In this document: positions 37,293 through 61,521 of the stretch, piece after piece | Numbering within the stretch: the stretch's first letter is position 1 | Layout: every line of letters starts with the position of its first letter | From: Natribaculum luteum | Lineage (GTDB): Archaea > Halobacteriota > Halobacteria > Halobacteriales > Natrialbaceae | Direction of reading: 5' to 3' | Length of the DNA stretch: 64,000 nucleotides | Assembly (NCBI RefSeq): GCF_023008545.1 | Contig: NZ_CP095397.1 | Span: 3,151,199-3,215,198, forward strand | Made by a program: the position numbers and the translations under genes | Notes under the pieces: model-generated | The model's input: the letters and a program-made list of their open reading frames with translations, nothing else | Told to the model about the DNA's origin: nothing | The model's database searches: none

Positions 37293-37301
37293 ATTATAAA
37301 T
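37293..37301 (-). promoter_or_regulatory. TATA box of the Salactin-like gene
   Basis: The minus strand reads ATTTATAAT, 23-31 bp upstream of the ATG, predicting a leaderless transcript. The region up to 37360 (ATATTTTATTTATATC) is among the most AT-rich in this part of the window and may contain upstream control sites. Confidence 0.6.
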
Positions 37302-37395
37302 CTATGTGAATTACCTTCATCAGTTAACGTTCGAAACAATATTTTATTTATATCTCGTCAGAGAAGTTAATCGTCCGCAGTTCGGTTAGAGAACG

Positions 37396-42168: not shown

Positions 42169-42241
42169 TCGGCTCGGCTGTAAGTCGCGAAACTGATACT
42201 GCCCGGTCCATTTATGGTAATGCTCTCTTAACGTGTGTTTC

Positions 42242-45077: not shown

Positions 45078-45519
45078 TCGATCGCCCCCGCTGCCCGGTC
45101 TGTCCTGGCGTCGCTTCTCGCTGCCGAGTAGGACCCGCTCTCGGTGCTACCCTGGGCGTACCGGCGGCCGGTTTCCCGTTCCATCATACTACTGAGTCTC
45201 ACGGCACAGTTCGTCACTGCTGGAACCGGACACTGTATGGCAATCGTACCGGGAGTAGCCGACGTCTCATCTCCTCGAAACTGACTCTTACAGCCAACGT
45301 GGCACGTCGTAGACTGTCCGCACAGTCTGGCTTGACGACGGATCTGGGGCTGATCGCTCGACGAGCAGCGACGCTGACGTCGGTCCTCGGTCGAACTGGG
45401 CGGGCTATACGTGTGGATCGTCGCAGGTGTACGTCACGTCTCCACGCGCGGTCGACCGTGGGACGGTCGGGCCCCCATAACAATGAGGGGAGATGGATTC
45501 GGAGTCGATACGGTCTCGC
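45078..45519. other. Intergenic region (442 bp) upstream of the glycan region
   Basis: No protein-like ORF is visible. Near its end is a perfect hairpin-forming repeat CGACCGT-GGG-ACGGTCG at 45453-45469, followed by a C-rich/G-rich pair around 45470-45490 (CCCCCATAACAATGAGGGG). This could be a transcription or translation control element for the lipoprotein gene at 45520. Confidence 0.45.
45453..45469. repeat. Inverted repeat, seven-base arms, GGG loop
   Basis: CGACCGT-GGG-ACGGTCG lies 51-67 bp before the lipoprotein start at 45520. It is a perfect palindrome arm to arm. It may act as an mRNA hairpin or protein-binding site; no U-run follows, so it is not an obvious terminator. Confidence 0.4.
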
Positions 45520-46803
45520 ATGAAACGACGTACATACCTCGCGACTGCGTCGACGACCGCCGCGATCGCGATCGCCGGCTGCGCGGGCGGTATTGGAACG
45601 ACGGACGACACCGACGACCCCGACGAACCGAACGAGTCGGACGGCAACGAAACCGACGGTGACGGCGACGATCCCAGCGGTGACGACGACCTGCCGGAGA
45701 TGGTCGGCACCTTCGACGACTTCGAGGACCTGAGCGCGTGGGAGGCTGTCGCCGGTTCGCTCGAGGCGGACAGCGAGCGCATGTCGATGGGGTCTCAGTC
45801 GGCCCACCTGTCGATGGCCGAGTCCGAGACCCAGGCCAGAATCGTCCGCGAACTGTCCGAGCCGATCGACGTCGAGGGCGTCGTCCCCGGCCTGGCGCTC
45901 TCGACCGACAGTTCGACGAACGTGGTGATCCAGCTCCAGGACGCCGGCGGTGACTTCCACCAGTTCCTTCAGTACACCTACGATGGACAGCCGTTCGTCA
46001 GGCAAAACTTCGGACACACGGAGGTCACCGGTGACGTCGACCTCAACGAGATCACCGAGATCCACATCACCTTCTCGGGTGGCGACGACAACGAGAGTCA
46101 CCTCTGGGTCGACGACTTGCACTTCGTCCCCGGGGTCGAAGACGGCCGGGTGATGGTGCAGTTCCAGGGCGGGTTCGAGTCGGATTACACGCACGCGTTC
46201 CCGATCATGGAAGAGTACGACCTGACTGGAGCGACGTTCGTCGCTCCCGAGAGGATTCGCATCACCGACGAGGCGAGCGGCGATCGGATGACCGAGGACC
46301 AACTGGCCGAACTCGTGGACGCTGGCTGGTCGCTCGGCACCGTCGGTGCGCGAGGTCTCCAGCTACACCGGGTCGACTCCGACCAGGTCGAATCGGATAT
46401 CCTCGATCCCCTCGCGTGGTTCGAGGACAAAGGCTACGACGACGCGCAGTACTTCGCGTTCCCCGGCGGCCGGTACGACCCGGAGATGTACGAACTCGTC
46501 GGGGAGAACTACGATCTCGGCTTCGCGGGACGGTACATGTCACAGGGATGGGCGAGCAACCGGCTCAACATCACGCGCATCTCCGCGGATGCGGGCCAGC
46601 GAAACCTCAACGCTGACCAGCTGGTCGACATCCTCGACTGGACGGCCGAACACGGCGGTATCACGACGATCGTCTTCTACAAGATGGACCAGGAAGACGC
46701 CTCGGCGCTCGAGGCGATGGCCTCGCGTCTCGCGGAACACCGGTCTGCGGGTGATCTCGAGTTGATCACGCCGGGCGAGATCGCCAACGAGTACGTTCCC
46801 TGA
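45520..46803 (+). CDS. Polysaccharide-deacetylase-like lipoprotein, probably non-catalytic
   Basis: A 427-residue exported lipoprotein: MKRRTYLATASTTAAIAIAG then Cys (lipobox AIAGCAGG), with a twin-arginine start; an upstream ATG at 45493 is in frame but unneeded. An acidic linker (residues 25-65) leads to a jelly-roll-like region (about 70-210, FDDFEDLSAWEAVAGSLEAD) of carbohydrate-binding type, then a NodB-like barrel (about 213-427). In the barrel the usual Asp-Asp metal motif reads FQGGFESDY and the HxxxH motif is replaced by ARGLQLHRVD, so the metal site looks lost. A glycan-binding role at the cell surface is the best guess. Confidence 0.78.
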   Translation: MKRRTYLATASTTAAIAIAGCAGGIGTTDDTDDPDEPNESDGNETDGDGDDPSGDDDLPEMVGTFDDFEDLSAWEAVAGSLEADSERMSMGSQSAHLSMAESETQARIVRELSEPIDVEGVVPGLALSTDSSTNVVIQLQDAGGDFHQFLQYTYDGQPFVRQNFGHTEVTGDVDLNEITEIHITFSGGDDNESHLWVDDLHFVPGVEDGRVMVQFQGGFESDYTHAFPIMEEYDLTGATFVAPERIRITDEASGDRMTEDQLAELVDAGWSLGTVGARGLQLHRVDSDQVESDILDPLAWFEDKGYDDAQYFAFPGGRYDPEMYELVGENYDLGFAGRYMSQGWASNRLNITRISADAGQRNLNADQLVDILDWTAEHGGITTIVFYKMDQEDASALEAMASRLAEHRSAGDLELITPGEIANEYVP

Positions 46804-46948
46804 ACCGGGCCGTTCGTCGTGTACAGCTGACAGTCGCGCCGTCATCGAAGTAACAGCGCCCTAACTCTCGTTTTTACGGTGAACGTACGGAAGGCTGCTA
46901 TTTACTAAACCCTTCTTTCTAAAAGCATCTGAAGGGTTCAAAACAGTC

Positions 46949-47980
46949 ATGTATAAAGGTGAAACAGTCGGCGTCGTGGTCCCTGCGTACAACGAGGCAG
47001 GGTTCGTCGGCGAGGTCATCGAAACCCTTCCACCGTTCGTCGACCGAGCGTACGTCGTCGACGACCGATCGACCGACGACACGTGGCAGGAGATCCAGCG
47101 GACCGCGGATCGCGTCAACAATCGATCGGAGACCGTCTACTCCAACCAGATTCACGCCGACGGCGGCCAGGTGTTTTCGCCGCGAATCGAGGCGATTCGC
47201 CACGACCGAAATCGAGGCGTCGGCGGCGCGATCAAGACGGGGTACGCGCGGGCGTGTGAGGACGGAATGGACGTCGTCGCGGTGATCAACGGCGACGGAC
47301 AGATGGACCCGTCGATCCTCGATCGGATCATCGATCCGGTCGTCGAGGGACGGGCCGAGTACGCGAAAGGAAACCGACTGTCGAGTCGCGAACACCGCGA
47401 GGGAATGTCAACCTGGCGACTGTTCGGCAACACGGTGCTCACTTTCCTCACGAAGTTCGTCAGCGGTTACTGGCGGATGAACGATCCCCAGAACGGCTAC
47501 ACCGCGATTTCCGCACGCGCACTCGAGACGATCGACGTCGATCGCCTCTACGACGGGTACGGGTTCTGTAACGATCTGCTGGTCCACCTGAACGTCCACG
47601 ATATGCGCATCGAGGACGTCGAGATGGAGTCACAGTACGGGGACGAGACCAGCCACATCAGGTACTCGACGTTCGTTCCGAAACTCTCGTGGCTGCTGTT
47701 ACAGCGGTCGATCTGGCGGTACAATACCAAGTACGTCGTCGCCGACTTCCACCCGCTCGTCTTCCTGCTCGCACTGGGACTTGCGGGTGCGGGCGCCGGC
47801 GTCTTCTTCGCCGGTTGGTCGCTGGCGTCGGCCGGCGTCGTCTCAGTTCAGGGAATGCTGTCAGTCATCGTGATATTGCTCAGCGGCCTGTTCGTCACGC
47901 TCGCGATGGTCTTCGACCGCCTCGCGAACGAGCGACTGCAACCGCGCGTGAACGAGCCCGTCGGGAGGGGTGATCGATGA
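46949..47980 (+). CDS. GT2-family glycosyltransferase (dolichol-phosphate sugar synthase-like)
   Basis: A 343-residue glycosyltransferase. The GT-A domain starts VGVVVPAYNEAGFVGEVIE and has the nucleotide-sugar motifs VVDDRSTDDT and the DxD-type INGDGQMDP (about residues 112-120); acceptor motif NDPQNGYTAISA follows. Two C-terminal membrane helices (about residues 268-290 and 300-322) anchor it. This layout is that of DPM1/AglJ-like enzymes that load a sugar on dolichyl phosphate. An insertion (RSETVYSNQIHADGGQVFSP) lies in the N-terminal third. It overlaps the next gene by ATGA. Confidence 0.87.
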   Translation: MYKGETVGVVVPAYNEAGFVGEVIETLPPFVDRAYVVDDRSTDDTWQEIQRTADRVNNRSETVYSNQIHADGGQVFSPRIEAIRHDRNRGVGGAIKTGYARACEDGMDVVAVINGDGQMDPSILDRIIDPVVEGRAEYAKGNRLSSREHREGMSTWRLFGNTVLTFLTKFVSGYWRMNDPQNGYTAISARALETIDVDRLYDGYGFCNDLLVHLNVHDMRIEDVEMESQYGDETSHIRYSTFVPKLSWLLLQRSIWRYNTKYVVADFHPLVFLLALGLAGAGAGVFFAGWSLASAGVVSVQGMLSVIVILLSGLFVTLAMVFDRLANERLQPRVNEPVGRGDR

Positions 47981-49035
47981 ACGTCCTCTCTGTCGTCGGT
48001 GCCCGGCCACAGTTCGTCAAGGCCGCCGCGGTCTCACAGCGGTTGCGTCCGCGCCACGACGAGACACTCGTCCACACCGGCCAACACTACGATCCGGAAC
48101 TCTCGAGGGTATTCTTCGAGGAACTCGAACTCGACGAACCGGACTACAATCTCGAGGTCGGGTCGGGCCCGCACGCCCGCCAGACCGCGGAGATGATGGC
48201 CAGACTCGAGCGGATCGTCACCGACGAGCGTCCCGACGTCGTGCTCGTCTACGGCGACACGAACTCGACGCTCGCGGGTGCGCTCGTGGCCGCGAAGACG
48301 TCGCCGTCGCTCGCTCACGTCGAGGCCGGCCTCCGATCGGGCGACATGAGGATGCCCGAGGAGGTCAACCGGATCCTCACCGATCACTGTTCGGATCTCC
48401 TCTTTGCACCCAGTCGAGACGCCGCGCGCACCCTCGAGCGCGAGGGGATCGCCGACGGCGTCTCGGTGCCCGGTGACGTGATGTACGACACGCTCCTGGA
48501 GGTCCGCGATCGACTGGACGCGGTCGACCCCGACGGGATCGACGTTCCCGACGAGTACGTGCTCGCGACGGTCCATCGAGCTGGAAACACGGACGATCCG
48601 GACCGACTCTCGGAGATCGTCGACGGCCTGTGCCGGATCCCGCAACCGGTCGTCTTCCCTGCCCACCCGCGCACGGTCGACGCCCTCCACGAACACGGCC
48701 TCTGGGCGCGGGCGGCCGAGGGGATCGACGTCGTCGACCCCGCCGGCTACCTGACGTTCGTCCAACTCGTCAGCGAGGCCGACTGCGTCGCGACGGACTC
48801 CGGCGGCGTCCAGAAGGAGGCGTTCTACCTGGACACGCCGTGTGTCACGTTGCGCGAGACGACGGAGTGGCGAGAGACGGTCGAGGCGGGCTGGAACGTC
48901 CTCGTCGGCGCGGACGCGGGACGGATCGTCGACGCCGTCTACACCGCTGCCGATCCACCGTCGAAGCCGGACCTCTACGGGAACGGCAACGCAGCGGAGC
49001 GAATCGTCGCCGAACTCGAGCGGGAGGTCGAGTGA
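47977..49035 (+). CDS. wecB: UDP-N-acetylglucosamine 2-epimerase (non-hydrolysing)
   Basis: A 352-residue GT-B-fold epimerase interconverting UDP-GlcNAc and UDP-ManNAc. Motifs: VVGARPQFVKAAAVS (N terminus), TGQHYDPELS, VYGDTNSTLAGAL, HVEAGLRSGDMRMPEEVNR, and SGGVQKEAFYLDTPCVTLRE near the C terminus. The start overlaps the GT2 stop. It supplies a ManNAc-type precursor for the surface glycan encoded around it; no UDP-ManNAc dehydrogenase is in the window. Confidence 0.92.
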   Translation: MNVLSVVGARPQFVKAAAVSQRLRPRHDETLVHTGQHYDPELSRVFFEELELDEPDYNLEVGSGPHARQTAEMMARLERIVTDERPDVVLVYGDTNSTLAGALVAAKTSPSLAHVEAGLRSGDMRMPEEVNRILTDHCSDLLFAPSRDAARTLEREGIADGVSVPGDVMYDTLLEVRDRLDAVDPDGIDVPDEYVLATVHRAGNTDDPDRLSEIVDGLCRIPQPVVFPAHPRTVDALHEHGLWARAAEGIDVVDPAGYLTFVQLVSEADCVATDSGGVQKEAFYLDTPCVTLRETTEWRETVEAGWNVLVGADAGRIVDAVYTAADPPSKPDLYGNGNAAERIVAELEREVE

Positions 49036-49037
49036 AC

Positions 49038-50042
49038 ATGGACGACGGGCCCCGCTCACGGACGACGATCGATCTGCCCGACGAGTGTCGGCGAGAGCGA
49101 TCCCCGCTACCGTCGGACGCGTCGTTCGCCCTCTGTCTCACTCACGACGTCGACCGGCCGTACAAAGGAATCCGGTCGCTGTACTACGCGACCCAGGAAC
49201 GGCCGACGTACCACCTGCGGACCGCGCTCTCGTCGACGAACCCCTACTGGCAGTTCGAGGAGATCGCGGCGCTCGAGGATCGCCTGGGCGTTCGGTCCGC
49301 CTTCTACTTCCTGAACGAACAGCACCTGCTTTCCGACCGGCCGGTCGGCGACTGGCTCTCCCCGACGAACTGGGTCCAACACCTCGGTCGGTACGACATC
49401 ACCGCTCCCGAGATCGTCGACGCGGTCCGGAAACTCGACGCCGGCGGGTGGGAAGTCGGCCTCCACGGGTCGTACCACTCCCCGGACGACCGCAACCGGC
49501 TCCGCGAAGAGAAAGCGCAACTCGAGGCCGTTCTCGGCCGCCCGGTCGTGGGCGGGCGACAACACTACCTCCGACTCTCGGTGCCCGACACCTGGCGTCA
49601 CCACCGGGCCGTCGGGCTTCGCTACGACGCCAGTCTCGGCTCGAGTACGGACGTCGGTTTCCACGACGGCTACCGACCGCTCCGTCCGTTCGGCGACGAC
49701 TTCCTCGTGTTTCCCCTGACAATCATGGAGGAGGCACTCCCGGACCCCGGCACGCAGTTCGACGACGCCAGGGCCGCGTGTGAACGACTGATGCTCGAGG
49801 CAGCGGCCAACGACGCCGTCGTGACGGCCCTCTGGCACCCGCGCTATTTCAACGAACGGGAGTTTCCGGGGTACCGGAAGCTCTACCGCTGGCTCGTCGA
49901 ACGGGCGCTCGAACTCGACGCGTGGGTCGGGCCACCCCGGGACCTCTACCGGGAGTTCGCTTCCGAACCGGAAGCGACGCCCGTCGGTACGAACGCGAAC
50001 GCAGACGATCGCACGCCAATCGAGACAAACTCGACCGAATAA
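49038..50042 (+). CDS. Polysaccharide deacetylase (NodB-like), catalytically plausible
   Basis: A 334-residue cytoplasmic-looking protein. The NodB motif 1 is LCLTHDVDRPY (about residues 31-41), and motif 2 is GLHGSYHSPDD (about residues 141-151), giving the Asp and two His that bind the metal, unlike the degenerate lipoprotein at 45520. A later conserved stretch is LWHPRYF. Start: ATG at 49038, with an in-frame GTG at 49032 that overlaps the wecB stop (GTGA) as an alternative. It probably deacetylates an amino sugar of the glycan or its precursor. Confidence 0.84.
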   Translation: MDDGPRSRTTIDLPDECRRERSPLPSDASFALCLTHDVDRPYKGIRSLYYATQERPTYHLRTALSSTNPYWQFEEIAALEDRLGVRSAFYFLNEQHLLSDRPVGDWLSPTNWVQHLGRYDITAPEIVDAVRKLDAGGWEVGLHGSYHSPDDRNRLREEKAQLEAVLGRPVVGGRQHYLRLSVPDTWRHHRAVGLRYDASLGSSTDVGFHDGYRPLRPFGDDFLVFPLTIMEEALPDPGTQFDDARAACERLMLEAAANDAVVTALWHPRYFNEREFPGYRKLYRWLVERALELDAWVGPPRDLYREFASEPEATPVGTNANADDRTPIETNSTE

Positions 50043-50046
50043 CGCC

Positions 50047-51390
50047 ATGAGAGGAACAGCACTCATCGTCGCGATAGTGATCGTCACGTCGACGATCGGT
50101 GGAATCGCCGCTGGAACGCATCACCCTGCAGTCGCCGAGCCGGGTTCCGCGGACGTCGCCGCCGCACAGACGGCCGACTCCTACGTCGTCGAACAGGGAT
50201 CGTTCTGCGAACCGATCGAACCGCTGTCGTCCGGCGAGACGGTCGAGGAGTTCTACGACTACCGGAACCACGAGACGCATCCGCCGTCGGTCGACCGACT
50301 GTACAGCTCCTACGGCACCACCCACCTCCAGGAGGACGACACCAGTCAGCTCTTCCTCCACGAGGGGCCAAACGGCACGAGTCTCGTCGTCGTCAACGAT
50401 CGACTCGACGGCAACACCGGCGGCGGTGCGGCCACGTTCGAGTTCGTCGGGCTGCCTCGAGAGGCCGAGTGGGTCGTCCAGGACGACGACTACTCGGGCG
50501 CGACGGCGACGTTCGACGCCGGCGACGGCTGGGCGTCCGCGTCGTGGATCTGGACGCAGCACCGGACCGACGGCGGAGCGATCCGTGGTGGACTCGACGG
50601 CCAGTTCGCCGTGACGATCCATCCAGCGTTCAACGACGACGCCGAGTTCGACCCCGCCGATGACGATACCGTCGTCGGTGGCGACATCACCGACTGGGAC
50701 GTGCTCTCGGGCAGCGCCGAGAACCCCGACCGGACGTCGCTTCCGTCGCTCGAGGAGCCGGTGACCATCCGCTCTGGAACGTGCGACGACCCCTCGATCA
50801 CGTACGACCAGACCGACGACGGACTCACTGCGACCGTCGGTGACGGCGACGACGGCGATCAGGTCTTCCTCCGGCCCTCGTCCGGGCCGGACGACGGCGT
50901 CAGGTTCGAGCAGGTCGGCGTGACGACCGAAGGCGAACCGTTCTCGGTCACGTTCGCGGATCGCCACACGGAATCGGCCCCGGACGACGCCGAGACGCTC
51001 TCCTCGCTGACCGTCACCGGCGACGGCACACCCGAGGAGACCGAGACGACGATCGTCTTCAGCGTCGAGAAAGACCGACTCGAGGAGAGCGGCGTCGAAC
51101 CGGAGGACCTCGCACTGTACGAACGGGCGGGCGACGAGTGGCGACAGGTACCGACGTCGGTCCACGACGAATCGAACGAGTCCTACCAGTTCGTCGCGGA
51201 GGGCTCGACTGTCTCGTCGCTGGCCGTCGCCGAACAGCGACAGAACCTCGAATCGAGCGGCGGGACGGGGGGGAGCTCGACAGGTGGCGAGGACGACCCC
51301 GAATCTATGCGAGGGTTCGGGATCGTCGGGAGCGTCGGCGCGCTGCTGGCGATCGTCTGGCTATGGACGACGAGAAGGAGCAGCGAGTAG
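50047..51390 (+). CDS. Exported cell-surface protein with C-terminal anchor helix
   Basis: A 447-residue protein. A Sec signal peptide (residues 1-22, ALIVAIVIVTSTIGGIAAG) is followed by a long acidic extracellular part. Residues about 330-395 (IVFSVEKDRLEESGVEPEDL to VAEGSTVSSLAV) resemble the PGF-pre-PGF repeat found before archaeosortase sorting signals. The C terminus is a Gly/Ser-rich linker, then RGFGIVGSVGALLAIVWLW and a basic tail. This resembles a PGF-CTERM signal but with Arg in place of Pro, so processing by ArtA is uncertain. Its stop is 9 bp from a convergent gene. Confidence 0.75.
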   Translation: MRGTALIVAIVIVTSTIGGIAAGTHHPAVAEPGSADVAAAQTADSYVVEQGSFCEPIEPLSSGETVEEFYDYRNHETHPPSVDRLYSSYGTTHLQEDDTSQLFLHEGPNGTSLVVVNDRLDGNTGGGAATFEFVGLPREAEWVVQDDDYSGATATFDAGDGWASASWIWTQHRTDGGAIRGGLDGQFAVTIHPAFNDDAEFDPADDDTVVGGDITDWDVLSGSAENPDRTSLPSLEEPVTIRSGTCDDPSITYDQTDDGLTATVGDGDDGDQVFLRPSSGPDDGVRFEQVGVTTEGEPFSVTFADRHTESAPDDAETLSSLTVTGDGTPEETETTIVFSVEKDRLEESGVEPEDLALYERAGDEWRQVPTSVHDESNESYQFVAEGSTVSSLAVAEQRQNLESSGGTGGSSTGGEDDPESMRGFGIVGSVGALLAIVWLWTTRRSSE

Positions 51391-51399
51391 ACGACCTGG

Positions 51400-52557
51400 C
51401 TATCGATTTTCCGGCGACGGCGACTGACGCCGCCGACGTCGCCGCTCGCGTTCTTCCGCGTCGGCCGAGACTGGCTCTTCTCGAGGCTGCCCGAACGGGC
51501 GAACCGACTCGAGTCCCGCGACGCGTCCGCGGGCCGTCGCGACGTCGACGATGACCTCGGTGAGGTTGCTCTTCTGGGCGACGTACTCGTCGCGCCGTCG
51601 TCGCCACTCCTCCTCGACACCGTCCGCGTGGAGCAACACCTCTGCCCGCTCGAGCAGTTCGTCGAACGCCGCGACGTTGTAGATCAGTCCCTGCTCTTCG
51701 AGCTCGAGGAAGTTGCCCATGTCCGAGTCGCCGACGAAGGAGTTCGAGCGAATCGCGGGCGTCCCGAGGAGCGCAGCTTCCGTGACCATCGTCTGCGTGT
51801 CGGCGATCAGGAGGTCGGCCTCGGCGAGCGCGTCGTGCATCAGCGCCGGGTGGAGATCGAACGGCCGCGCCGGGAGGTCGTCGAACGCCATCTCGTCGCC
51901 CTCGTCGGAGACGAAGACTGTCGCGTACTCGCTTACCGTCTCGATCAGCCGACGGCGGCGAGCGTCCGTGATCCCCTTCTGTCCGACGTCGTGGTGCGAC
52001 CCGAACGCGTTCAGCCGGAGGATCACGTACGGGTCGTCGGACTCGAGGTCAAGCCGATCGCGAACCGTCGGATCCGGCGTGTACACGTCCGGGTGGAGGT
52101 ACGCACACTCTTTGAACCCCGAGAACACGTAGTGTGAGTCACCCAGCTCCTTCCGGATCGTGTCGGGCGTGAGGACGGCGCGGGCAAAGGGCGTCGAGAT
52201 CGCGTGGTCGATCGTCGTCGTTTCCGAGTCGATGATCAGGACAGTCGGCACGCCCAGCAACGCGCCGGTGTGTGCCGCGTATCCACCCATCCCGAACACG
52301 AGGTCGGGGTCGAACCGTCGTGCGTACCGTATCGCTCGCAAGTAGTGACCGGGCAGGCGAGCCAGCAGCGACCCCTTGGAGGTGTCACAGTAGCCGTAGA
52401 CCTCGTGTGGGAGGTTGTACCACTCGACCAGGTCGACGGTACAGCCGTAATCCCTGGCGAGCACGAGCACCTCGTGTCCCCGCTCGCGAAGCGACTGCAC
52501 GGCGTGTTTGTACAGGTGCACGTGCGCCGGCGTGTTCGCGAAAATCAAATACCTCAT
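51400..52557 (-). CDS. DUF354-family (GT-B-like) glycan biosynthesis protein
   Basis: A 385-residue protein. The N terminus MRYLIFANTPAHVHLYKHAV and the motif FGMGGYAAHTGALLGVPTVL, then ADTQTMVTEAALLGTPAIRSNS, are typical of DUF354 proteins, which share the GT-B fold of MurG and WecB. The C-terminal 40 residues are charged and arginine-rich (REEPVSADAEERERRRRRRQ). The role is probably in nucleotide-sugar or lipid-linked sugar chemistry. It is on the opposite strand from the adjacent glycan genes, sharing a divergent 150-bp region with the gene at 52708. Confidence 0.82.
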   Translation of the reverse strand: MRYLIFANTPAHVHLYKHAVQSLRERGHEVLVLARDYGCTVDLVEWYNLPHEVYGYCDTSKGSLLARLPGHYLRAIRYARRFDPDLVFGMGGYAAHTGALLGVPTVLIIDSETTTIDHAISTPFARAVLTPDTIRKELGDSHYVFSGFKECAYLHPDVYTPDPTVRDRLDLESDDPYVILRLNAFGSHHDVGQKGITDARRRRLIETVSEYATVFVSDEGDEMAFDDLPARPFDLHPALMHDALAEADLLIADTQTMVTEAALLGTPAIRSNSFVGDSDMGNFLELEEQGLIYNVAAFDELLERAEVLLHADGVEEEWRRRRDEYVAQKSNLTEVIVDVATARGRVAGLESVRPFGQPREEPVSADAEERERRRRRRQSPSPENR

Positions 52558-52707
52558 CCGGGTGCAGAGTACACGATCGGTCGTTTTGTTATGGCGCTCA
52601 TGTCCACACCACCCGCCGAGCGGGCGTCGATAACCTGGCCGCTAGTGAACCGGGGACGATCGGTAACGAGCGTATAGTAATGTGAATCGATTTCGAGGTG
52701 TCCGTAG

Positions 52708-54066
52708 ATGAACGTGCGACGACGACCTCCGGAACCTGCCGTACAGAGCCTTCTGAACGGGCTCGCTCCGCTCGAGTCGCTACGAGACGCCCGATCGCCG
52801 GCGAAGGGGGCGGCTACCGGCACGCCACGGCGACGTCGAGAGGAGGCATCTGACCGGTACCTCGAGGTGCTCGACGCGACGCTCGAGTACGCCCGTCGGC
52901 GAGACTACGTCGGTCCGGATTACGGGGATGGGTTGAGTAGTCGACTCCTTCAGGGCCTCCCGTTCGAGAACAGGTGGCTCAACCTGGCCGTCCAGGAGAC
53001 CGTAAAGCGCGCCCCGGTCGATATTCGGCCGCTCTTTCTCGTCGAGGAGCGTCGCAACTACAAGGGCGCCGCGCTGTTTACGATGGCGAACCTGAACTAC
53101 CACGCGCTGACGGCCGGTCGCCACTCGTCGGTCGACGTCGGGTTCGACCCCACAGCGGAGGCAAAGCGACTCGCGGACTGGCTCGTCGACGAGCGATGCA
53201 CCGGGTACAGCGGATTCTGCGGCGGTCACCGCCACGAGATCCAGCACCTCCACACCAAAGGAGTACCGAACGACGCCGACATCGTCTCGACCACGTACGC
53301 GGTCAAAGCCCTCTTGCGTGCCGCCCACCTCGACGAGGAGTACGCCGAGCTCGCTCGGACGGCGACCTCGTTTCTGGTCGAGGACCTGAACTACCGGGAG
53401 GTTCCGGCGGGGGCGAAGATCGACTACCACATGAACCACCCGTCGGACTCCTACACCATCAACGCGGCCGCACTCGGCGCACAGATGCTCGTCGACCTGT
53501 ACGAACGGTTCGGGGACGACGACCTCCGCGAGCGGGCGACGAAGATCCTGGATCACGTCGCCGCCCACCAGACCGACCTCGGCGGCTGGCCCTACCGGAT
53601 TCCCGCGTCGTCGTCGCACCTGTCGATGGACAACCACCACAACGGGTTCGTCGTCGAGTCCTTCCAGCGATATCGCGACGTCGTCGACGCGGATCGGTAC
53701 GCCGACACGCTCGCCGACGCCCTCGAGTTCTACCGCCACGAGCTGTTCGAGCCCAACGGGGCCCCGAACTTCGACGAGGAGAACGCCTATCCACGCGATA
53801 TCCACGCCAGCACGCAGGGACTGCTGGTGTTCACCCGCGAGGGCGACCTCGAGTTCGCCGAGCGGATCCTCCGGTGGGTGCTCGCGAACCTGCAGGTCGA
53901 GGAGGGACGGTTCTACTACCGACAGTACCGGTACCACACGAAACGGGTGACGCTGATGCGGTGGTGTCAGGCCTGGATGGCCTACGCGCTGTCGGAGTTC
54001 CTGCTGGCCGCTACGGAACGGTCGGGTTCGAACGGCGACAGATTGCAGACGGCAACACGATCATGA
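52708..54066 (+). CDS. Alpha/alpha-toroid protein of unknown activity
   Basis: A 452-residue soluble protein composed of repeated helical hairpins with conserved aromatic and His-rich loops: GYSGFCGGHRHEIQ, YHMNHPSDSYTINAAAL, LGGWPYRIP, SMDNHHNGFVVESF and NFDEENAYPRDIHASTQGLL. This pattern suggests an (alpha/alpha)6 barrel as in polysaccharide lyases, epimerases and glycosidases. No signal peptide or membrane helix is seen. Its stop overlaps the following glycosyltransferase start (ATGA). I infer a sugar-processing role, for example an epimerase or hydrolase. Confidence 0.7.
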   Translation: MNVRRRPPEPAVQSLLNGLAPLESLRDARSPAKGAATGTPRRRREEASDRYLEVLDATLEYARRRDYVGPDYGDGLSSRLLQGLPFENRWLNLAVQETVKRAPVDIRPLFLVEERRNYKGAALFTMANLNYHALTAGRHSSVDVGFDPTAEAKRLADWLVDERCTGYSGFCGGHRHEIQHLHTKGVPNDADIVSTTYAVKALLRAAHLDEEYAELARTATSFLVEDLNYREVPAGAKIDYHMNHPSDSYTINAAALGAQMLVDLYERFGDDDLRERATKILDHVAAHQTDLGGWPYRIPASSSHLSMDNHHNGFVVESFQRYRDVVDADRYADTLADALEFYRHELFEPNGAPNFDEENAYPRDIHASTQGLLVFTREGDLEFAERILRWVLANLQVEEGRFYYRQYRYHTKRVTLMRWCQAWMAYALSEFLLAATERSGSNGDRLQTATRS

Positions 54067-55229
54067 GCCGCTCGAGCACGCAGGCGACCCGGACGTCACT
54101 CGACCCGGACGGCGAGGCGAGCGCGTCGACGGCCGCGAGTCGGCGTCGGCACGCTCGAGGGACCAGTCCCGACCCCGAGGACGCTCGCGTGCTCGTCGTC
54201 ACGGGACTGTCACAGAAGAACGACCGCCACTACGGGCCGCTCGCGGACGTCGCCGACCGGACGACGCTCGTGTGTCTCGATCCGACGGTCGACGTCGACG
54301 ACGCGAACTGTGTCCCGACGCCGCAGGTCGGCCCGCGACTCGTTCGCGTCGTCGCCCTCTTTTTCGTCGCGCTCTACGAGGGGTACAGAAACGAGTACGA
54401 CGCGATCGCGTCGATCTCGCTTTTCCCGTACGGACTCTACGCGCTCGCGCTGAAAGCCGTCTACGGCTACCCCGCCCACCTCGGCATCATCGGCATCGAC
54501 CTCGACCACCACGCCCACCAGTGGTACGGCGGGATTCCGCGGTGGGCGTTCCGTCGCTTCGACGCCGTCTCCGTTCCCGGCCCCTCTCACGCCGAACGAC
54601 TCGCTCGCCTCGGCGTGTCGCGGGATCGCATCGAGATCCTGACGAACGCGATCGACGTCGACACCTACGCCCCCACGGACGCGGACGTCGAGACCGAGTA
54701 CGACTTCGTCTGGGTCGGGCGGTTCAGCGCGGAGAAAGACCCGATACGATTCGTCGAGGCGCTCGCCGAACTCGAGGCGACCGGAGCCGGGTTCCGGGCC
54801 GCCATGGTCGGCGACGGACCGCTTCGGGCGGACGCCGCAGACGCCATCGTCGCACGTGGGCTAGACGACTGTGTCGACCTCCCCGGCTGGGTCGACGACC
54901 CCGTCCGGTACTACCGACGATCGAACGCCTTCGTCCTCACCTCGCGTCGGGACGCGCTCCCGCTGGTGATGCTCGAGGCGATGGCGACCGGCCTCGCACC
55001 GATCGTTCCCTCGGTCGGTTCGATTCCGGACGTCGTCACCGACGGCGACGACGGCATCGTCGTCCCCGACCGCGAGCCTGCGACCTTCGCCGCGGCGATG
55101 GAGCGGTTCCTGGACGACCCCGACTATCGACGATCCGTCGCAGCGAACGCGACCGCCGTTCGATCGTCGTTCTCGCTCGAGCAGGCGAGCGACGACTGGC
55201 GGCGTATTCTGACGACGCTCGCGCGATAA
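54063..55229 (+). CDS. GT4-type (group 1) glycosyltransferase
   Basis: A 388-residue GT-B glycosyltransferase. The first 40 residues are low-complexity. Conserved pieces: ILTNAIDVDTYAPT, FVWVGRFSAEKDPIRFVEA, AAMVGDGPLR, and the C-terminal donor-binding ALPLVMLEAMATGLAPI with EX7E-like spacing. It adds a sugar to the growing oligosaccharide. The ATG at 54063 overlaps the toroid gene; a long upstream frame reads through that gene and is rejected. Confidence 0.88.
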   Translation: MSRSSTQATRTSLDPDGEASASTAASRRRHARGTSPDPEDARVLVVTGLSQKNDRHYGPLADVADRTTLVCLDPTVDVDDANCVPTPQVGPRLVRVVALFFVALYEGYRNEYDAIASISLFPYGLYALALKAVYGYPAHLGIIGIDLDHHAHQWYGGIPRWAFRRFDAVSVPGPSHAERLARLGVSRDRIEILTNAIDVDTYAPTDADVETEYDFVWVGRFSAEKDPIRFVEALAELEATGAGFRAAMVGDGPLRADAADAIVARGLDDCVDLPGWVDDPVRYYRRSNAFVLTSRRDALPLVMLEAMATGLAPIVPSVGSIPDVVTDGDDGIVVPDREPATFAAAMERFLDDPDYRRSVAANATAVRSSFSLEQASDDWRRILTTLAR

Positions 55230-55343
55230 GCGGCCCGAGCCGTGTCTCGAGAGCACGCAGTCGGCACTCGTCGACGACGCTCGAATAGGGAGGCGATTAC
55301 GAGGCGGTAACGACGTGATAACAAAACGAATCGTCACTGCACG

Positions 55344-56387
55344 ATGACTCACATGGAAATCGAACGACTGGATCTCGAGGAGTGGGGCGACGTACTGCCG
55401 AGATCTGGAGTCGAGGTGTTTCACGACCCCGACGCACTCGCCGTCCTCGACAGGCACACCGACGCCGAGTTGCGCCTGTACGGCGCGTACAAGGGACAGC
55501 AGGCGGTCGGCCTGCTGCCGGTGTTCGTCGACGAGAAGTCGGTCGGCGAGAAACCGATCGGGCGAACGGTCTTCTCGCCACCCGTCTCGCTCGGCGTTCC
55601 CCGTCTCGGGCCGATCGTCACCCCCAACAGTCCGAAACGGCGCAAACGCGAGCGGATCAACAGCCGACTGGCCGAGACGGTCGTCGACGAACTCGAGGTC
55701 GACAGGCGGTCGACGCTGTTCCGAATGACCTGTCCGCTTGGCTACGCCGATCCGCGACCCTACGGCTGGAACGACTTCGCGGTGACGCCGGAGTTCACGT
55801 ACGTCGTCGACCTCGAGGGCTGTACCGACCTCGAGGACGCCATGGCAGGGTTCAGCAAGAGCCTCAGAAACGAGATGCGCCGGTACGACGATCTCGATCT
55901 CTCGATCGAGACGGAGGGGATCGAATCCGCACTCCGGATCTACGACGACGTCGTCGCCCAGTACGAGGAGTACGGCGACACTGCGCCCATGTCCCGCCTC
56001 TTCCTGCGGGACCTGCTTTCGGCGCTCGACGACGATCGGTGGCGCGTGTACGTCGCCCGGACCCCCGACGGCACCTACAAAAGCGGAATCGTCACGCTCT
56101 TTTCCGACGACCTGGCGTACTACTGGCAGGGCGGCGTCACCGCGTCCTACGAGAACGTTAGCGTCAACAACCTCCTCCACCGCGTCATCCTCGAGGACCT
56201 CGTCACCGACCCCGACCTCGAGTCGGTGACGGGATACGACCTCGTCGGTGCGAACACCGAGCGACTCTGTGAGTACAAAGGGAAGTTCAACGGCGACCTC
56301 CGGCCGTACTACGTGATCGAGTCGTCCGGCCTCGAGATGACGCTGGCGAAATCGGCCTATCGGCGAGTTGTCGGCTCGCTCAAGTGA
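55344..56387 (+). CDS. FemAB/GNAT-fold acyl- or aminoacyltransferase
   Basis: A 347-residue protein with two GNAT-like halves. Family signs are the opening EVFHDPDALAVLDRHTDAEL, the central FSKSLRNEMRRYDDLD (the KxxRN-type motif common to FemAB and BioF2-like acetyltransferases), YYWQGGVTASYENVSVNNLL and DLVGANTERLCEYKGKFNG. Bacterial FemAB proteins add amino acids to the peptidoglycan peptide; related proteins acylate polysaccharides. Here it should modify the glycan. It stands between a glycosyltransferase and an ATP-grasp ligase, all plus strand. Confidence 0.8.
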   Translation: MTHMEIERLDLEEWGDVLPRSGVEVFHDPDALAVLDRHTDAELRLYGAYKGQQAVGLLPVFVDEKSVGEKPIGRTVFSPPVSLGVPRLGPIVTPNSPKRRKRERINSRLAETVVDELEVDRRSTLFRMTCPLGYADPRPYGWNDFAVTPEFTYVVDLEGCTDLEDAMAGFSKSLRNEMRRYDDLDLSIETEGIESALRIYDDVVAQYEEYGDTAPMSRLFLRDLLSALDDDRWRVYVARTPDGTYKSGIVTLFSDDLAYYWQGGVTASYENVSVNNLLHRVILEDLVTDPDLESVTGYDLVGANTERLCEYKGKFNGDLRPYYVIESSGLEMTLAKSAYRRVVGSLK

Positions 56388-56832
56388 GCGGTAGTGTCTC
56401 GAGGATTCGTCACGTCGATCGTACGTTCCATCTGATCCCTACCAGTACAGTTACGACAGCCTTCTCGCGGTAGGGATCCCCTGTAACACCGAAGACGCGG
56501 AGAACGTGAGGCGTTTTGCCCGGCAACGGGCGGTGACGAAGGCGGTAAAATGCGCGCGTGTTGTCGGCGAAACAGTGGACGAGTCGCTACCAGAATCGAA
56601 CGCTGGTGATTCGAAACTGAAGAGAGTACACTGTTCTTAACTAACGTTCAGAATTCGGTGACTGATACCATGGCTATCTCCGTCGTGGGACCGCGGGCTC
56701 TTTCAGCGGGTTCGAAGCGCCACGTCGACACCAGGACGGTCAGTCCGATCGGCGATACGAGACAGACGTTCCCGTTCACCGACACCGATTCGCGCAGCGA
56801 GCAGTCGACTCCGTTCCCGGCGGGTGGTCTCG
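56388..56832. other. Intergenic region (445 bp) between FemAB-like and ATP-grasp genes
   Basis: Mostly without a gene. A small possible ORF starts at ATG 56670 (57 codons, MAISVVGPRALSAG) and ends at 56843, overlapping the next start. It has an AT-rich, promoter-like stretch (GTTCTTAACTAACG) about 30 bp upstream but its composition is not clearly halophilic. It could be a leader peptide or noise. The region suggests that the ATP-grasp gene has its own promoter. Confidence 0.3.
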
Positions 56833-58047
56833 ATGAGCAGTGACGCGTGGGCCGATCGGTCGGTCGCCGTCCCGACGATCAGTGCACCGAGTAGCGTCGC
56901 GTGTCTCCGGTCGCTCGGTCGCCGGGGCATTCGAACGATTGCAGTTTCGGAACACGAACGCTCTCCGGCGGCCCGCTCGAAGTACTGCGACGAGACCGTT
57001 CCAGTCCCCGATCCACACGACGACCTGCTCGCGTACAAGGACGCCTTGCGATCAATCGCCATGCGACCCGACGTCGCCACGATCATCCCCGTTCGAGACG
57101 TCGACGTCTACGTCCTCTCGAAGTACCGCTCCGAGTTTCGAGACTACGTCGCGACGCCCTGGCCGGACATGGAGACGCTCGCGAAGACACACGACCGCGT
57201 CCAGCTCTTCGAGGCCGCCGAAAAAGCGGACGTCCCCATGCCGGAGACCGGGCTGCTCGACGAATCCAGAGACTGGGATCGCGAGTGGATCGTCAAGGCG
57301 CGGTACGCAGTCCTCGCCGACGAGTACGTCGATCACTACTCGCCGTCACAGTTCGTCGATCCACCGACGACCGAGTACCTCCGCCCGGGCGTCGAACCGG
57401 ATGTCGACGTCTTCCGACGGGAGATGCACCACGTCCCCTTGCTCCAGGAGTACGTCCCCTCCACCGACGAGTACGGGTTCTTCGCACTCTACGATCACGG
57501 CGAACCGGTCGCCACGTTCCAGCACCGGCAGATTCGCGCCTACAGCTACGCGGGCGGCCCGAGTTCGTTTCGCGAATCGGTCCGCATCCCGGCTCTCGAG
57601 AACGCTGGCCGGGACCTGCTCGACCAACTCGAGTGGCACGGACTCGCGATGGTCGAGTTCCTGCGAGACGACGACGGCGAGTTCAGGCTCATGGAGGTCA
57701 ATCCGCGATTCTGGTCGTCGTTGCCCTTCTCCGTCCAGGCCGGCGCCGACTTCCCGTACTACTACTGGCTGCTGGCCAACGGCGAGAAAGAGCGCATCGA
57801 CCACGAGTACGAGGCCGGAATCGCCGGCCACCTGCTGCGCGGCGAACTGCTCTACTTGCGTTCGATCCTGTTCGAAGACTACGAACTCACAGAGAAGCCG
57901 TCGTTCTCGAGCGCCCTGACGGACGTCCTGTGGTCGATCGTCGAACATCCACGGTTCGACTACGCGAGCACCGACGACGTCTGGCCGTTCGTCCAGGACT
58001 TACAGGACGCGTACGACTACTACAAGAATCGCGACTCCGTCAAGTGA
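56833..58047 (+). CDS. ATP-grasp carboxylate-amine ligase
   Basis: A 404-residue ATP-grasp protein. Residues 1-110 form the pre-ATP domain (VAVPTISAPSSVACLRSLGR, RGIRTIAVSEHE); ATP-binding residues lie in EWIVKARYAV (about residue 155), LLQEYVPSTDEYGFFALYDH and the metal-binding FRLMEVNPRFWSSLPFS (about residues 279-295). Such enzymes join a carboxylate to an amine through an acyl phosphate. Start ATG 56833 is chosen over an in-frame GTG three codons upstream. In this context it could couple an amino acid to a sugar acid. Confidence 0.85.
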   Translation: MSSDAWADRSVAVPTISAPSSVACLRSLGRRGIRTIAVSEHERSPAARSKYCDETVPVPDPHDDLLAYKDALRSIAMRPDVATIIPVRDVDVYVLSKYRSEFRDYVATPWPDMETLAKTHDRVQLFEAAEKADVPMPETGLLDESRDWDREWIVKARYAVLADEYVDHYSPSQFVDPPTTEYLRPGVEPDVDVFRREMHHVPLLQEYVPSTDEYGFFALYDHGEPVATFQHRQIRAYSYAGGPSSFRESVRIPALENAGRDLLDQLEWHGLAMVEFLRDDDGEFRLMEVNPRFWSSLPFSVQAGADFPYYYWLLANGEKERIDHEYEAGIAGHLLRGELLYLRSILFEDYELTEKPSFSSALTDVLWSIVEHPRFDYASTDDVWPFVQDLQDAYDYYKNRDSVK

Positions 58048-58214
58048 CGGCTGTCGGCGCAGAACGTATCACCAGGTCATCTCGCCGGTCCGTCCCACTG
58101 GTTTCTCGAGGACGTCCCGCAACACTTCTGGACGCCGTTCGAGGTCCGGTCGACTACTTCGTTTTACCGGCCCATCGAACGTTTTCGAGCGGCTCTTGTC
58201 TCGCGGTGACTGTG

Positions 58215-59813
58215 TTACTCCATGTAACCGAGGCCGCGTAACCGCTCTTCGACACCATCGAAGTCGTCGTCTCGCTGTGTATCGGTTGTTTCGTTGGCAT
58301 TTTGTCGAACTTCGACCGATCGAACCGCTAAATCACGACTCGTCTCGAGGAGTTCGTTCTGTACGGCTCCGTCGACGTTTTCCGGTATTGGTTCACCGAT
58401 ACTGTGTAACACCGTCGGAGCGACGTCCACGACGGAGAGATCCGCGACTGGATCACAGTCTTTGACGTTCGGGCCCCACGCGAAGAACACACCACGGCTC
58501 CGGTGACCGGCCATCTCGGTCTCGGCCGCGCTGAACACGGAGTCTGTTACGTTCGTCTTCTCCTCGTATCCGTCGTTCCCGACGACGACTAGATCCGGCG
58601 ACGCGGTATCTGTCGGGAACAGGTCGTCTCCGTCGGAGACGGTCACCACCTCTTCTCCCGTTTCCGGGTCAGTCAAATCTGAAAAAAGTGATGCCAGTTC
58701 CCGCTTCAGCTCCGGAACGTCTTCTGGGGGGACGATGCCGTGGCCGAAGCGATTCGAATCGTTGACGTAGATGTAGCTCGGTCCGTGAGCGAATGCGACG
58801 GTTTCCGAGAAATCCACGTCGTACAGGCCGTGATCGCCGGGTACGCGTTCCGCGATGCGGTCCACGAGCGGCTTTGGGAGGGAGTTGACGAACCGACCGT
58901 TGTCGACTCCAAACCGTTTCAGCGTCTCGAGGACGTTCGACTTCGTGATACCGAGCCTGGCGAGCGAACTTCGCGTACCATCCTGGCGCTTCCGCGCGAG
59001 ATAGCCGCCGTTCGCCAGCACGGCATTGAGATGAACGAGTGTCGATACTGGTCCGAATCCGTGGTCCGATACGACGAACAGATTAGCGTTTCGACCACTA
59101 ACGTACTCGATCACATCACCCAGAATGTCGTCGAGTTGTTTGTAGTGCTCGAGAATGACCTTTTCGTCCCAGATTAGGTGCTGAAGCCGATCGGGAGCCG
59201 TGTAGACGAAGAAAAATAATTGCCAATCCTCGATATCCATGAGCCGATTCATCAGCTTTCGACGCGCCGCGACGAGTGACGCGAGGTCGCTTTTGAACGC
59301 CGTTTCGTTCCCGTGGTAATCGTACCAGTTGAGTCCTATTTTGTAGTCTGGAATCTCCTCGCGGATCTCGTCGGCGAACTCGGGCGGATGCGTGAATCCT
59401 TCAGCCATTTGTGGCGAGACCATTCCGGCGACCATCCTGCCGTCGACGTCACCTGCGGGGTACGTCATCGGAACGTTACCCACGACTGCAGGAGACAGCT
59501 GTTGCCACAGCGGTGGTTGTCTCAGATCTTCACTCGTATTCATCCGCTGTGTGTGATCTGACTCCAGCCGTTGAAAGCCATAGATTCCGTGCTTGTCGGG
59601 CCAGACGCCAGTTGCAATCGATGGCCACGCAGTCGGCGTCATCGGCGGCACTGTGCTTTCTAACGGCCCTACTGCGCCGTCTTCGAAGAGTGTCTCAAAA
59701 TGCGGCAACTCCCCGACCTCGATCCATTTTCGGATGAGGTCCCACGGGACGCCGTCGATCCCAAGAACGAAGGCCCGTTCGGCACCGGCGGAGCTAGTAT
59801 GCGTATCTACCAT
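58215..59813 (-). CDS. Type I phosphodiesterase / alkaline-phosphatase-superfamily protein
   Basis: A 532-residue protein. Metal-binding and nucleophile regions: VLGIDGVPWDLIRK (first Asp), MTPTAWPSIATGVWP (Thr/Ser nucleophile area), VYTAPDRLQHLIWD, VVSDHGFGPVS (Asp-His) and MAGHRSRGVFFAWGP (His). This is the nucleotide pyrophosphatase/phosphodiesterase-like order common in archaeal polysaccharide clusters. No signal peptide or membrane helix is seen. Third-position GC is lower than in the genes to the left, and the gene is on the opposite strand. Possible substrates are phosphodiester- or phosphate-modified glycans. Confidence 0.85.
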   Translation of the reverse strand: MVDTHTSSAGAERAFVLGIDGVPWDLIRKWIEVGELPHFETLFEDGAVGPLESTVPPMTPTAWPSIATGVWPDKHGIYGFQRLESDHTQRMNTSEDLRQPPLWQQLSPAVVGNVPMTYPAGDVDGRMVAGMVSPQMAEGFTHPPEFADEIREEIPDYKIGLNWYDYHGNETAFKSDLASLVAARRKLMNRLMDIEDWQLFFFVYTAPDRLQHLIWDEKVILEHYKQLDDILGDVIEYVSGRNANLFVVSDHGFGPVSTLVHLNAVLANGGYLARKRQDGTRSSLARLGITKSNVLETLKRFGVDNGRFVNSLPKPLVDRIAERVPGDHGLYDVDFSETVAFAHGPSYIYVNDSNRFGHGIVPPEDVPELKRELASLFSDLTDPETGEEVVTVSDGDDLFPTDTASPDLVVVGNDGYEEKTNVTDSVFSAAETEMAGHRSRGVFFAWGPNVKDCDPVADLSVVDVAPTVLHSIGEPIPENVDGAVQNELLETSRDLAVRSVEVRQNANETTDTQRDDDFDGVEERLRGLGYME

Positions 59814-60109
59814 ATGTTTATACGTCGATATTGATTTGAATCCATTCCGCTTCTATTGTTATACAATGTATTCCACCGGACAATTTCACATTATAGGGAA
59901 GAATGCCACGCGTAGGAGTTCGCACCGAAAGGTCGATCATATCGTAGTGGATCAGCCAGATTATAACCAGGCGAGTTAGCTTCGTCCCTCAATTGGCTGT
60001 AAGCTGTCCACGAACGGGTTCGACGAACCGTTGGTTAGTGTCGATAACTCTCGAACCCACAAGCAGCTCACAACTGCACTGACGATCTCGGTACCAGTTT
60101 TACACACCT

Positions 60110-60129
60110 GTAAACGCTCGAGTTTACAG
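60110..60129. repeat. Inverted repeat TGTAAAC-N6-GTTTACA
   Basis: Seven-base perfect arms separated by GCTCGA, 222 bp before the GT61-type gene. The symmetry and A/T-rich arms are those of an operator for a dimeric regulator. No second copy was noticed. Confidence 0.4.
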
Positions 60130-60320
60130 ATTCACCTCGAGTGCGCCGTCGGTCGCCCGTTTGCCGTCGTGAGTGCGACTCCGCCACCGGAAAGTCGTAC
60201 CTAAACTACGATGGTGGGTCTAGCTGCGGGTGGGACATCGTCGACCGGTAGTCTCAACACCCTTCCGTTTTCACGACGGTTTCACCACCTCGAGTCGCTC
60301 ATCCGGAAGTGTGATCATAA

Positions 60321-60329
60321 TTAACTATA
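60321..60329 (+). promoter_or_regulatory. TATA box of the GT61-type gene
   Basis: TTAACTATA ends 22 bp before the ATG at 60352, consistent with a leaderless transcript. Confidence 0.5.
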
Positions 60330-60351
60330 TCGCTGCGAGTGTCTGTCACAG

Positions 60352-61521
60352 ATGACATTAGAGGCACTCATACGGAATATCGAGGAGAAGGGCTTCTCGT
60401 ACGCCAATACGCTCGTCACCCTCGACCGAAATCAGGTCACTCGAGAGGAGTTGTACGACTTATTCGTGAAGAACGGTTCGCTAATCGACTACGGCGAACC
60501 CGAGTCAGTGACGGTATCGGAGCCCGACGCCGTCGTCGAAGAACTGCCAGAAATGAATCGGTGGCAGGGGACGTATACGATATCGAAACCTTTCGTGGGT
60601 GTCGTAAACGATGCACGAATCGTCGGCTCCCCTCCGTTAGCAATCTCTGGCTCGAACTATATCGCAGACGCCTCCGTCAGCCCTAACGTTCAAACGCTCA
60701 ATGTGATCAAGTCGATTCCCCGTACCCCAAAGCGGATCGTCTCGGGCAACGGTAAGCGGGAACCCATCGAAGAGGGCGTCCTATTACACAACAGTTGGCA
60801 TGGTGGTTACTTCCACTGGGTTGCCGAAACGTTAACTCGATTGGAGGGTGTTGAAAAGTACATCGAGAGAACCGGTCGAAAGCCGAACCTAATCGTCGGT
60901 CCAGACCTGAACTCGTTTCAGGCAGAGTCGTTGGCATTGCTCGGCTACGATCGAGACGACCTGATTCACTGGCAATCTGCGTACTGCGAGGTCGAGCGTC
61001 TCGTCGTCCCATCGATGCGTCGAGAGATCGATCCACCGAATCCATCTCCGTTTTCACACTGGTGGCTCCGAAATACGCTTCGTCGACGGGCGCTCGATGA
61101 AATCGATACTTCTCGGTTTTCGAGTCGCGTTTACATCAGCCGCAACGATGCTGATACCCGCCGTGTGCTAAACGAGTCGGATCTTGCAACTGTACTCGAC
61201 AAGTACGGATTCGAAACCTACCAGCTTTCGAAGATGACGGTTGAAGAAACGATAGCGCTGTTCGCCCAGGCAGACTGTATCGTGGCACCACACGGTGCCG
61301 GTTTGGCGGATCTTATTTACACTGATGATGTGGCACTCATCGAGTTCATGCCAGAGGATAGAGTAAATGGTGTTTACTATATGCTGGCAAAACAGGTCGG
61401 AGGCTGGTATGGATACATCGGCTGTCAGACTCACGGTTCTGACATCACTGTCCCTCCTCAGCAACTCGAGCGGAGCATCACTGCTGCCATAGACCGTGAT
61501 CAGACTGCACAGACAGTATAA
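60352..61521 (+). CDS. GT61-family glycosyltransferase
   Basis: A 389-residue protein. The GT61 hallmarks are present: NSWHGGYFHWVAETLTRLE (about residues 147-165), SSRVYISRNDADTRRVLNE, LSKMTVEETIALFAQADCIV and the APHGAGLADLIYT motif (about residues 317-329). No membrane segment. GT61 enzymes transfer xylose, GlcNAc or other sugars. Codon use includes many A/T-ending codons, unlike the GC3-rich neighbours upstream, which suggests later acquisition. Confidence 0.85.
   Translation: MTLEALIRNIEEKGFSYANTLVTLDRNQVTREELYDLFVKNGSLIDYGEPESVTVSEPDAVVEELPEMNRWQGTYTISKPFVGVVNDARIVGSPPLAISGSNYIADASVSPNVQTLNVIKSIPRTPKRIVSGNGKREPIEEGVLLHNSWHGGYFHWVAETLTRLEGVEKYIERTGRKPNLIVGPDLNSFQAESLALLGYDRDDLIHWQSAYCEVERLVVPSMRREIDPPNPSPFSHWWLRNTLRRRALDEIDTSRFSSRVYISRNDADTRRVLNESDLATVLDKYGFETYQLSKMTVEETIALFAQADCIVAPHGAGLADLIYTDDVALIEFMPEDRVNGVYYMLAKQVGGWYGYIGCQTHGSDITVPPQQLERSITAAIDRDQTAQTV

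Follow-up and report, generated by a model that had tools for sequence, protein, structure and literature searches.

What surface glycan is made by a haloarchaeal gene cluster that combines glycosyltransferases with a FemAB-like protein and an ATP-grasp ligase, and which of its genes belong together? The question is raised by a 64,000-nucleotide stretch of the 4.6 Mb genome of Natribaculum luteum, called the window below (G000:C1:3151199-3215198). The original prediction, made from the sequence alone, was a polymer with N-acetylmannosamine (ManNAc)-type sugars, free amino groups and amino-acyl or acyl decorations, with the FemAB-like and ATP-grasp proteins acting as a pair. The explanation favored here, to which a probability of about 0.55 is given, is that the block around the FemAB-like gene encodes a haloarchaeal version of the Wbp/Vim sugar pathway known from bacteria. 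The argument is built on gene content, conserved linkage, diagnostic residues and fold; the enzyme activities are inferred from these, as are the amino acid added, its carrier and the glycan that results. WbpA/B/E/D-type enzymes would convert UDP-N-acetylglucosamine (UDP-GlcNAc) to UDP-2,3-diacetamido-glucuronic acid, the 2-epimerase of the window would turn this into the mannuronic form, a VimE-like cytoplasmic deacetylase would take off one acetyl group, presumably at C-2, and the FemAB-fold enzyme would transfer an amino acid from aminoacyl-tRNA to the amine thus exposed. Building the sugar into a lipid-linked surface glycan would fall to the GT2, DUF354-type and GT4 transferases, with an alpha/alpha-toroid enzyme probably acting on the uronic acid or on the chain.

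Conserved neighbourhood of the FemAB-like gene

Orthologues of the FemAB-like protein were found in 22 of the 61 genomes searched, with identities of 45-98%, that of Natribaculum breve being 98% identical. Gene neighbourhoods were compared at 80 named loci, of which the 66 with at least 9 kb on both sides are used for all linkage counts, a gene being counted as linked when it lies within 10 kb of FemAB. The deacetylase gene is linked in 61/66 loci, and in 32 of them, spread over many genera, it is directly adjacent to FemAB on one strand. The DUF354 gene follows with 45/66, the epimerase with 37/66 and the toroid gene with 36/66, while the figures for the Wbp-type genes are 38 (WbpB), 34 (WbpD), 31 (WbpE) and 30 (WbpA); the ATP-grasp gene is linked in 11 loci and GT61 in 5. 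Within the family the order deacetylase - PGF protein - DUF354 - toroid - GT4 - FemAB is kept; in other families the deacetylase gene often abuts FemAB, and GT2 adjoins the epimerase gene there too. Two genomes that have no orthologue of FemAB (G021 and G033) carry a FemAB paralogue about 250-270 bp from the deacetylase gene. The window region is a composite, in which the deacetylase-to-FemAB block is syntenic and the ATP-grasp, phosphodiesterase, GT61 and right-hand secreted-protein genes are variable.

Presence and absence were tested over 50 good genomes, with p-values that ignore shared ancestry. The deacetylase is present in 20 of the 21 genomes with FemAB versus 8 of the 29 without it (p=1.4e-6), and the toroid protein in 16/21 versus 0/29 (p=4e-9), whereas for the ATP-grasp protein the figures are 15/21 and 17/29 (p=0.39). 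In most relatives the ATP-grasp gene lies more than 100 kb from FemAB, on another contig, or is absent, and FemAB occurs without it in G019 and G024. On linkage, association and placement, a conserved FemAB/ATP-grasp pair was rejected. FemAB tracks the deacetylase and toroid genes across haloarchaea; the ATP-grasp gene is a neighbour here, outside the conserved unit. At its other positions in relatives (L065, L068, L069, L080) it is found within a few kb of the phosphodiesterase gene, sometimes with another deacetylase (family f19), and it may therefore be part of a separate module.

The 2-epimerase and the Wbp-type genes

The non-hydrolysing UDP-sugar 2-epimerase had been taken for a WecB, and the ManNAc-type sugar was predicted with it. 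Its best solved match is 8sxv, the Thermus UDP-2,3-diacetamido-2,3-dideoxy-glucuronic acid (UDP-GlcNAc3NAcA) 2-epimerase, at 337 bits, versus 292 bits for the WecB of M. jannaschii and 141 bits for that of E. coli. The diagnostic residues of UDP-GlcNAc3NAcA 2-epimerases are Trp, Ala and Tyr, in place of the Arg, Leu/Met and His/Gln found in UDP-GlcNAc 2-epimerases (PMC10622841). All three are present in the window protein, its Ala16, Tyr92 and Trp298 corresponding to Ala18, Tyr96 and Trp307 of the Thermus enzyme, as they are in 37 of the 46 epimerase homologues of the loci (37/41 of those with all positions aligned). Three of the others have Leu for Ala and in five the first position is unaligned, all eight of these keeping Tyr and Trp; the last one, a 43% identical homologue at L050, has Leu/Gln/Arg and so is of the UDP-GlcNAc type, which provides a built-in contrast. 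With all three diagnostic residues in place, the enzyme is probably a UDP-GlcNAc3NAcA 2-epimerase of the WbpI type, with a 2,3-diamino-mannuronic acid instead of ManNAc as its likely product. On the residues and the match to 8sxv, a plain WecB was rejected.

Homologues of WbpA, WbpB, WbpE and WbpD are encoded in the same genome, together at C1:3319493-3323505, about 112 kb from the block. In 21 named loci from Haloferax, Haladaptatus, Halorussus, Halostella, Salinibaculum and Halomicrococcus, all four lie with the epimerase, deacetylase and FemAB genes within 10 kb, in the order WbpD, WbpE, WbpB, WbpA, often GT2, then epimerase, deacetylase and FemAB. The Wbp-type proteins of L046 match NCBIfam models for nucleotide sugar dehydrogenase, archaeal UDP-GlcNAc 3-dehydrogenase, a sugar aminotransferase family and a hexapeptide N-acetyltransferase family, in part below the equivalog cut-offs. 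Two membrane proteins, one of them small (f6, starting MWPWEH) and the other f12, recur as neighbours of the Wbp or deacetylase genes at many loci and in the genome of the window itself (L152 13611-15063); they are candidate partners in the pathway.

The deacetylase and the FemAB-like protein

Scores against the VimE model NF053580 are 53.5 bits for the window deacetylase and 61 bits for that of L046, both under the cut-off of 440 bits, which places the window protein, by sequence, in the same superfamily as VimE but not as an equivalog. His38, Asp39, Asp41, His145, His178 and His269 are invariant among 79 deacetylase homologues. No signal peptide or membrane segment was predicted in either the deacetylase or the FemAB-like protein. 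The deacetylase is predicted to be cytoplasmic, a placement that would fit the scheme, since nucleotide- or lipid-linked substrates and tRNA need enzymes with neither feature. Sequence searches of the PDB with the deacetylase and FemAB profiles gave nothing convincing.

The model of the FemAB-like protein (predicted local distance difference test, pLDDT, 87) aligns with FemA, FemX, Sbb17 and Sba18 over 276-308 residues at Z scores of 21.5-23.5 (Foldseek E 4e-12), its two fused GNAT domains corresponding to those of FemX/FemA along most of the chain, with 12-14% identity to FemA/FemX/Sbb17. The eleven top matches are all aminoacyl-tRNA-dependent enzymes (FemA/FemX/Sbb17) and are followed by a gap of 6 Z units, MprF reaching Z 15.4 or less and GNATs that use coenzyme A (CoA) 13.3 or less; one of the matched aminoacyl-tRNA-dependent structures is complexed with an amino sugar antibiotic intermediate. 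The protein has a Tyr311-Lys312-x-Lys314-Phe315 motif in which Lys312, invariant in 101 FemAB homologues, is a candidate counterpart of the Lys305 used by FemX (PMC12945691). With a deacetylase and a candidate FemAB-fold aminoacyl transferase in the glycan gene set, an amino-acyl decoration is the best reading; the predicted free amino group, from the deacetylase, and amino-acyl group, from the FemAB fold, find support, and the part given to the ATP-grasp ligase does not. Two paralogues of FemAB with about 35% identity are also encoded in the island, at G000:C1:3226624-3227568 (L053) and 3275558-3276529 (L056); each adjoins a gene for an alkaline-phosphatase-superfamily phosphodiesterase, a pairing that recurs at L043, L060, L071 and many other named loci.

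The toroid protein, glycosyltransferases and PGF-CTERM-type protein

The AlphaFold model of the toroid protein (pLDDT 81) has cellobiose 2-epimerase and GH76 mannanase as its best fold matches, at Z about 30 (30.0-29.7), and also matches AGE-type epimerases and GH88-like and GH105 enzymes; a PDB sequence search with its profile gave a best match of E 0.005, which is not convincing. The conserved His, Asp and Trp residues (His304, Asp308, His311, Asp364, His366 and Trp419, invariant in 68 homologues) suggest that it is an enzyme, possibly a uronate epimerase or lyase. The GT2 protein scores 64.8 bits against AglJ (TIGR04182), far under the cut-off of 325, and is only distantly AglJ-like; the block is thus unsupported as an Agl N-glycosylation locus. 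The original prediction did not recognize the gene combination as a described Agl pathway; bacterial Wbp/Vim logic is a precedent for it.

Orthologues of the PGF protein carry a terminal PGF-CTERM tail of the archaeosortase type, which reads RGF in the window protein. Archaeosortase A (ArtA) is encoded at C1:2342080, outside the block, and there is no exosortase among the annotated genes of the block. An aminoacyl sugar from the block might be the acceptor to which an archaeosortase or other transpeptidase attaches PGF-CTERM surface proteins, for example the one in the block. This is a long shot; it would be an independent pairing of such a sugar with sortase-like anchoring in haloarchaea, and would parallel the attachment of type IX secretion cargo to the linking sugar of Porphyromonas.

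Relation to known systems

The bacteria P. gingivalis and T. forsythia use WbpA/B/E/D to make 2,3-diacetamido-glucuronic acid (diNAc-GlcA). The proposed role of VimE is to free C-2, and the choice between Ser and Gly is made by VimA; the P. gingivalis sugars are 2-N-seryl or 2-N-glycyl, and that of T. forsythia is a mannuronic acid (PMC7468200). The route from UDP-GlcNAc by way of diNAc-GlcA, 2-epimerisation (proposed in T. forsythia) and deacetylation to amino acid transfer by a GNAT/FemAB-related protein is the one envisaged here, and vimE and vimA homologues are adjacent as well (PMC7468200). The haloarchaeal set differs in being archaeal, in the remote sequence similarity of its deacetylase and FemAB, in having no type IX secretion, and in the toroid and DUF354 genes that are conserved in it as additions; since the scores stay below the model cut-offs, its proteins have not been filed as VimE or VimA. 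The XrtA/PEP-CTERM exopolysaccharide loci also have a FemAB (TIGR03019), a deacetylase (TIGR03006) and glycosyltransferases beside a sortase-type substrate, whose place is taken here by the PGF-CTERM-type protein, but the haloarchaeal proteins are below both cut-offs and archaeosortase A is elsewhere in the genome. With the FemABX proteins (FemX, FemA and Sbb17/Orf11, of which Orf11 attaches Gly to an intermediate that is an amino sugar; PMC12945691) the double-GNAT fold is shared over the whole chain, though the window protein is archaeal and has no peptidoglycan to act on. Archaea do make aminoacylated amino sugars and diNAc-uronic acids: the Halococcus wall contains N-glycyl-glucosamine (PMC4187196), and Methanococcus N-glycans contain diacetamido uronic acids (PMC2952790), with threonine on C-6, not on a C-2 amine; the exopolysaccharide of Haloferax denitrificans is a further archaeal source of diNAc-uronic acids (PMC3191746). 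No paper describing this haloarchaeal gene set was found among the openly licensed papers searched.

Alternative explanations

Several observations weigh against the Wbp/Vim reading. Besides the remoteness of the similarity to VimE (53-61 bits), that to TIGR03019 is also remote, 13 of the 22 orthologues giving weak matches (best 32.9 bits, cut-off 260) and the window protein none; fold cannot prove tRNA as the donor; and the usual HxxxH motif varies at its second His in the 79 deacetylase homologues, which leaves the third metal ligand ambiguous. The Wbp genes are unlinked to the block in the genome that the window comes from, many genomes that lack FemAB have Wbp-type genes too, and WbpB homologues are common in haloarchaea rather than specific to the block. 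In addition, the genome of Haloferax denitrificans has the whole operon (L126), yet its diNAc-uronic acid exopolysaccharide, the one such haloarchaeal polysaccharide for which a description was found, is reported to be fully N-acetylated, gluco-configured and without amino acids (PMC3191746), which weakens a simple link from operon to exopolysaccharide in that organism.

Were the FemAB-like protein an acyl-CoA-dependent N-acyltransferase, the acetyl group would be swapped for another acyl group and the product would be an N-acylated, non-aminoacylated diamino-uronic acid. PF13480 is indeed named as a GNAT acetyltransferase domain, and CoA-using tandem GNATs have the same overall fold at Z 13; set against this are the aminoacyl-tRNA dependence of all eleven top fold matches, 6 Z units above the rest, and an invariant Tyr-Lys pair that resembles the FemX Lys305 site, as a candidate equivalence (PMC12945691), so that an acyl-CoA donor appears unlikely but deserves to be kept in mind. 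It is rather improbable that the region is simply a variable exopolysaccharide or capsule island, whose FemAB and deacetylase modify separate polymers and are adjacent since glycan genes cluster: the variable right half (ATP-grasp, phosphodiesterase, GT61 and secreted protein), the fall in G+C to about 0.54 beyond 58 kb and the several FemAB paralogues in the same island would agree with this, but not the deacetylase-FemAB adjacency over many genera or the association of the two in presence and absence. The functional pair of the original prediction, FemAB and ATP-grasp ligase together adding amino acids to a ManNAc-containing polymer, draws on their adjacency in this genus and in several Natrialba and related genomes, and an ATP-grasp enzyme could amidate a uronic acid, as in the threonine amides on methanococcal uronic acids (PMC2952790). 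Given the missing phyletic association, the few linked loci, the separate positions in most relatives and the gap of about 440 bp between the two genes in the window, it is considered highly improbable.

Genes of the block and other features of the window

Every enzyme named in the original prediction is encoded by a long intact open reading frame with a haloarchaeal coding signal and a family match (a fold match only, in the case of the toroid protein), and the enzyme set is thereby confirmed. Three genes absent from that list are added in Table 1: those for a deacetylase-like lipoprotein, the PGF-CTERM-type protein and the DUF354/MurG-like transferase. Overlaps of about 4 bp join GT2 to the epimerase gene, the epimerase to the deacetylase gene, and the toroid gene to GT4.

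Table 1. Genes of the glycan region, with positions in the window
Feature	Position	Strand	Match
Deacetylase-like lipoprotein	45493-46803	+	PF01522 5.7e-8
GT2 glycosyltransferase, C-terminal transmembrane region, distantly AglJ-like	46949-47980	+	PF00535 4e-16; hydrophobic segment at 262
Non-hydrolysing UDP-sugar 2-epimerase ("WecB")	47977-49035	+	TIGR00236 6e-87
VimE-like CE4-type deacetylase	49032-50042	+	NF053580 (VimE model) 1.4e-14, 53.5 bits
Secreted PGF-pre-PGF/PGF-CTERM-type protein	50047-51390	+	TIGR04213 2.3e-9
DUF354/MurG-like GT-B glycosyltransferase	51400-52557	-	PF04007 3.7e-10; TIGR01133 7e-7
Alpha/alpha-toroid protein, sugar-enzyme fold	52708-54066	+	Fold only
GT4 glycosyltransferase	54063-55229	+	PF00534 1.2e-29; best NCBIfam TIGR03088 88.5 bits
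FemAB-like double-GNAT aminoacyl transferase candidate	55344-56387	+	PF13480 6e-19
ATP-grasp ligase	56824-58047	+	PF15632 6e-7
Phosphodiesterase	58215-59813	-	PF01663 2e-45
GT61	60352-61521	+	PF04577 3.5e-22

The lipoprotein is rarely kept near FemAB, and it is probably not an active deacetylase, since its NodB metal motifs look degenerate (FQGGFESD, RGLQLH). Between 58000 and 64000 the G+C content drops to 0.50-0.56 from about 0.65. Third-position G+C drops as well, from 0.84 to 0.60, in the genes for GT61 and the secreted protein, which suggests that these genes were recently acquired. Upstream of the region, 42233-44026 (+) encodes a protein of 597 amino acids, 42% of them acidic, whose C-terminal part is predicted to form a coiled coil and for which there was no convincing family match, and 36242-37339 (-) encodes a Volactin (PF25216 1e-138), of a haloarchaeal actin-like protein family.

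Implications

If the Wbp/Vim reading is true, the block would give aminoacylated archaeal glycans a concrete genetic basis, the enzymes for which were not found described in the literature searched. A tRNA-dependent modification that places an amino acid on a sugar, known from few bacteria, would then be widespread in Haloferax, Haladaptatus, Halorussus, Natrialba, Natrinema and other haloarchaea, and the haloarchaeal pathway is open to testing in genetically tractable Haloferax strains.

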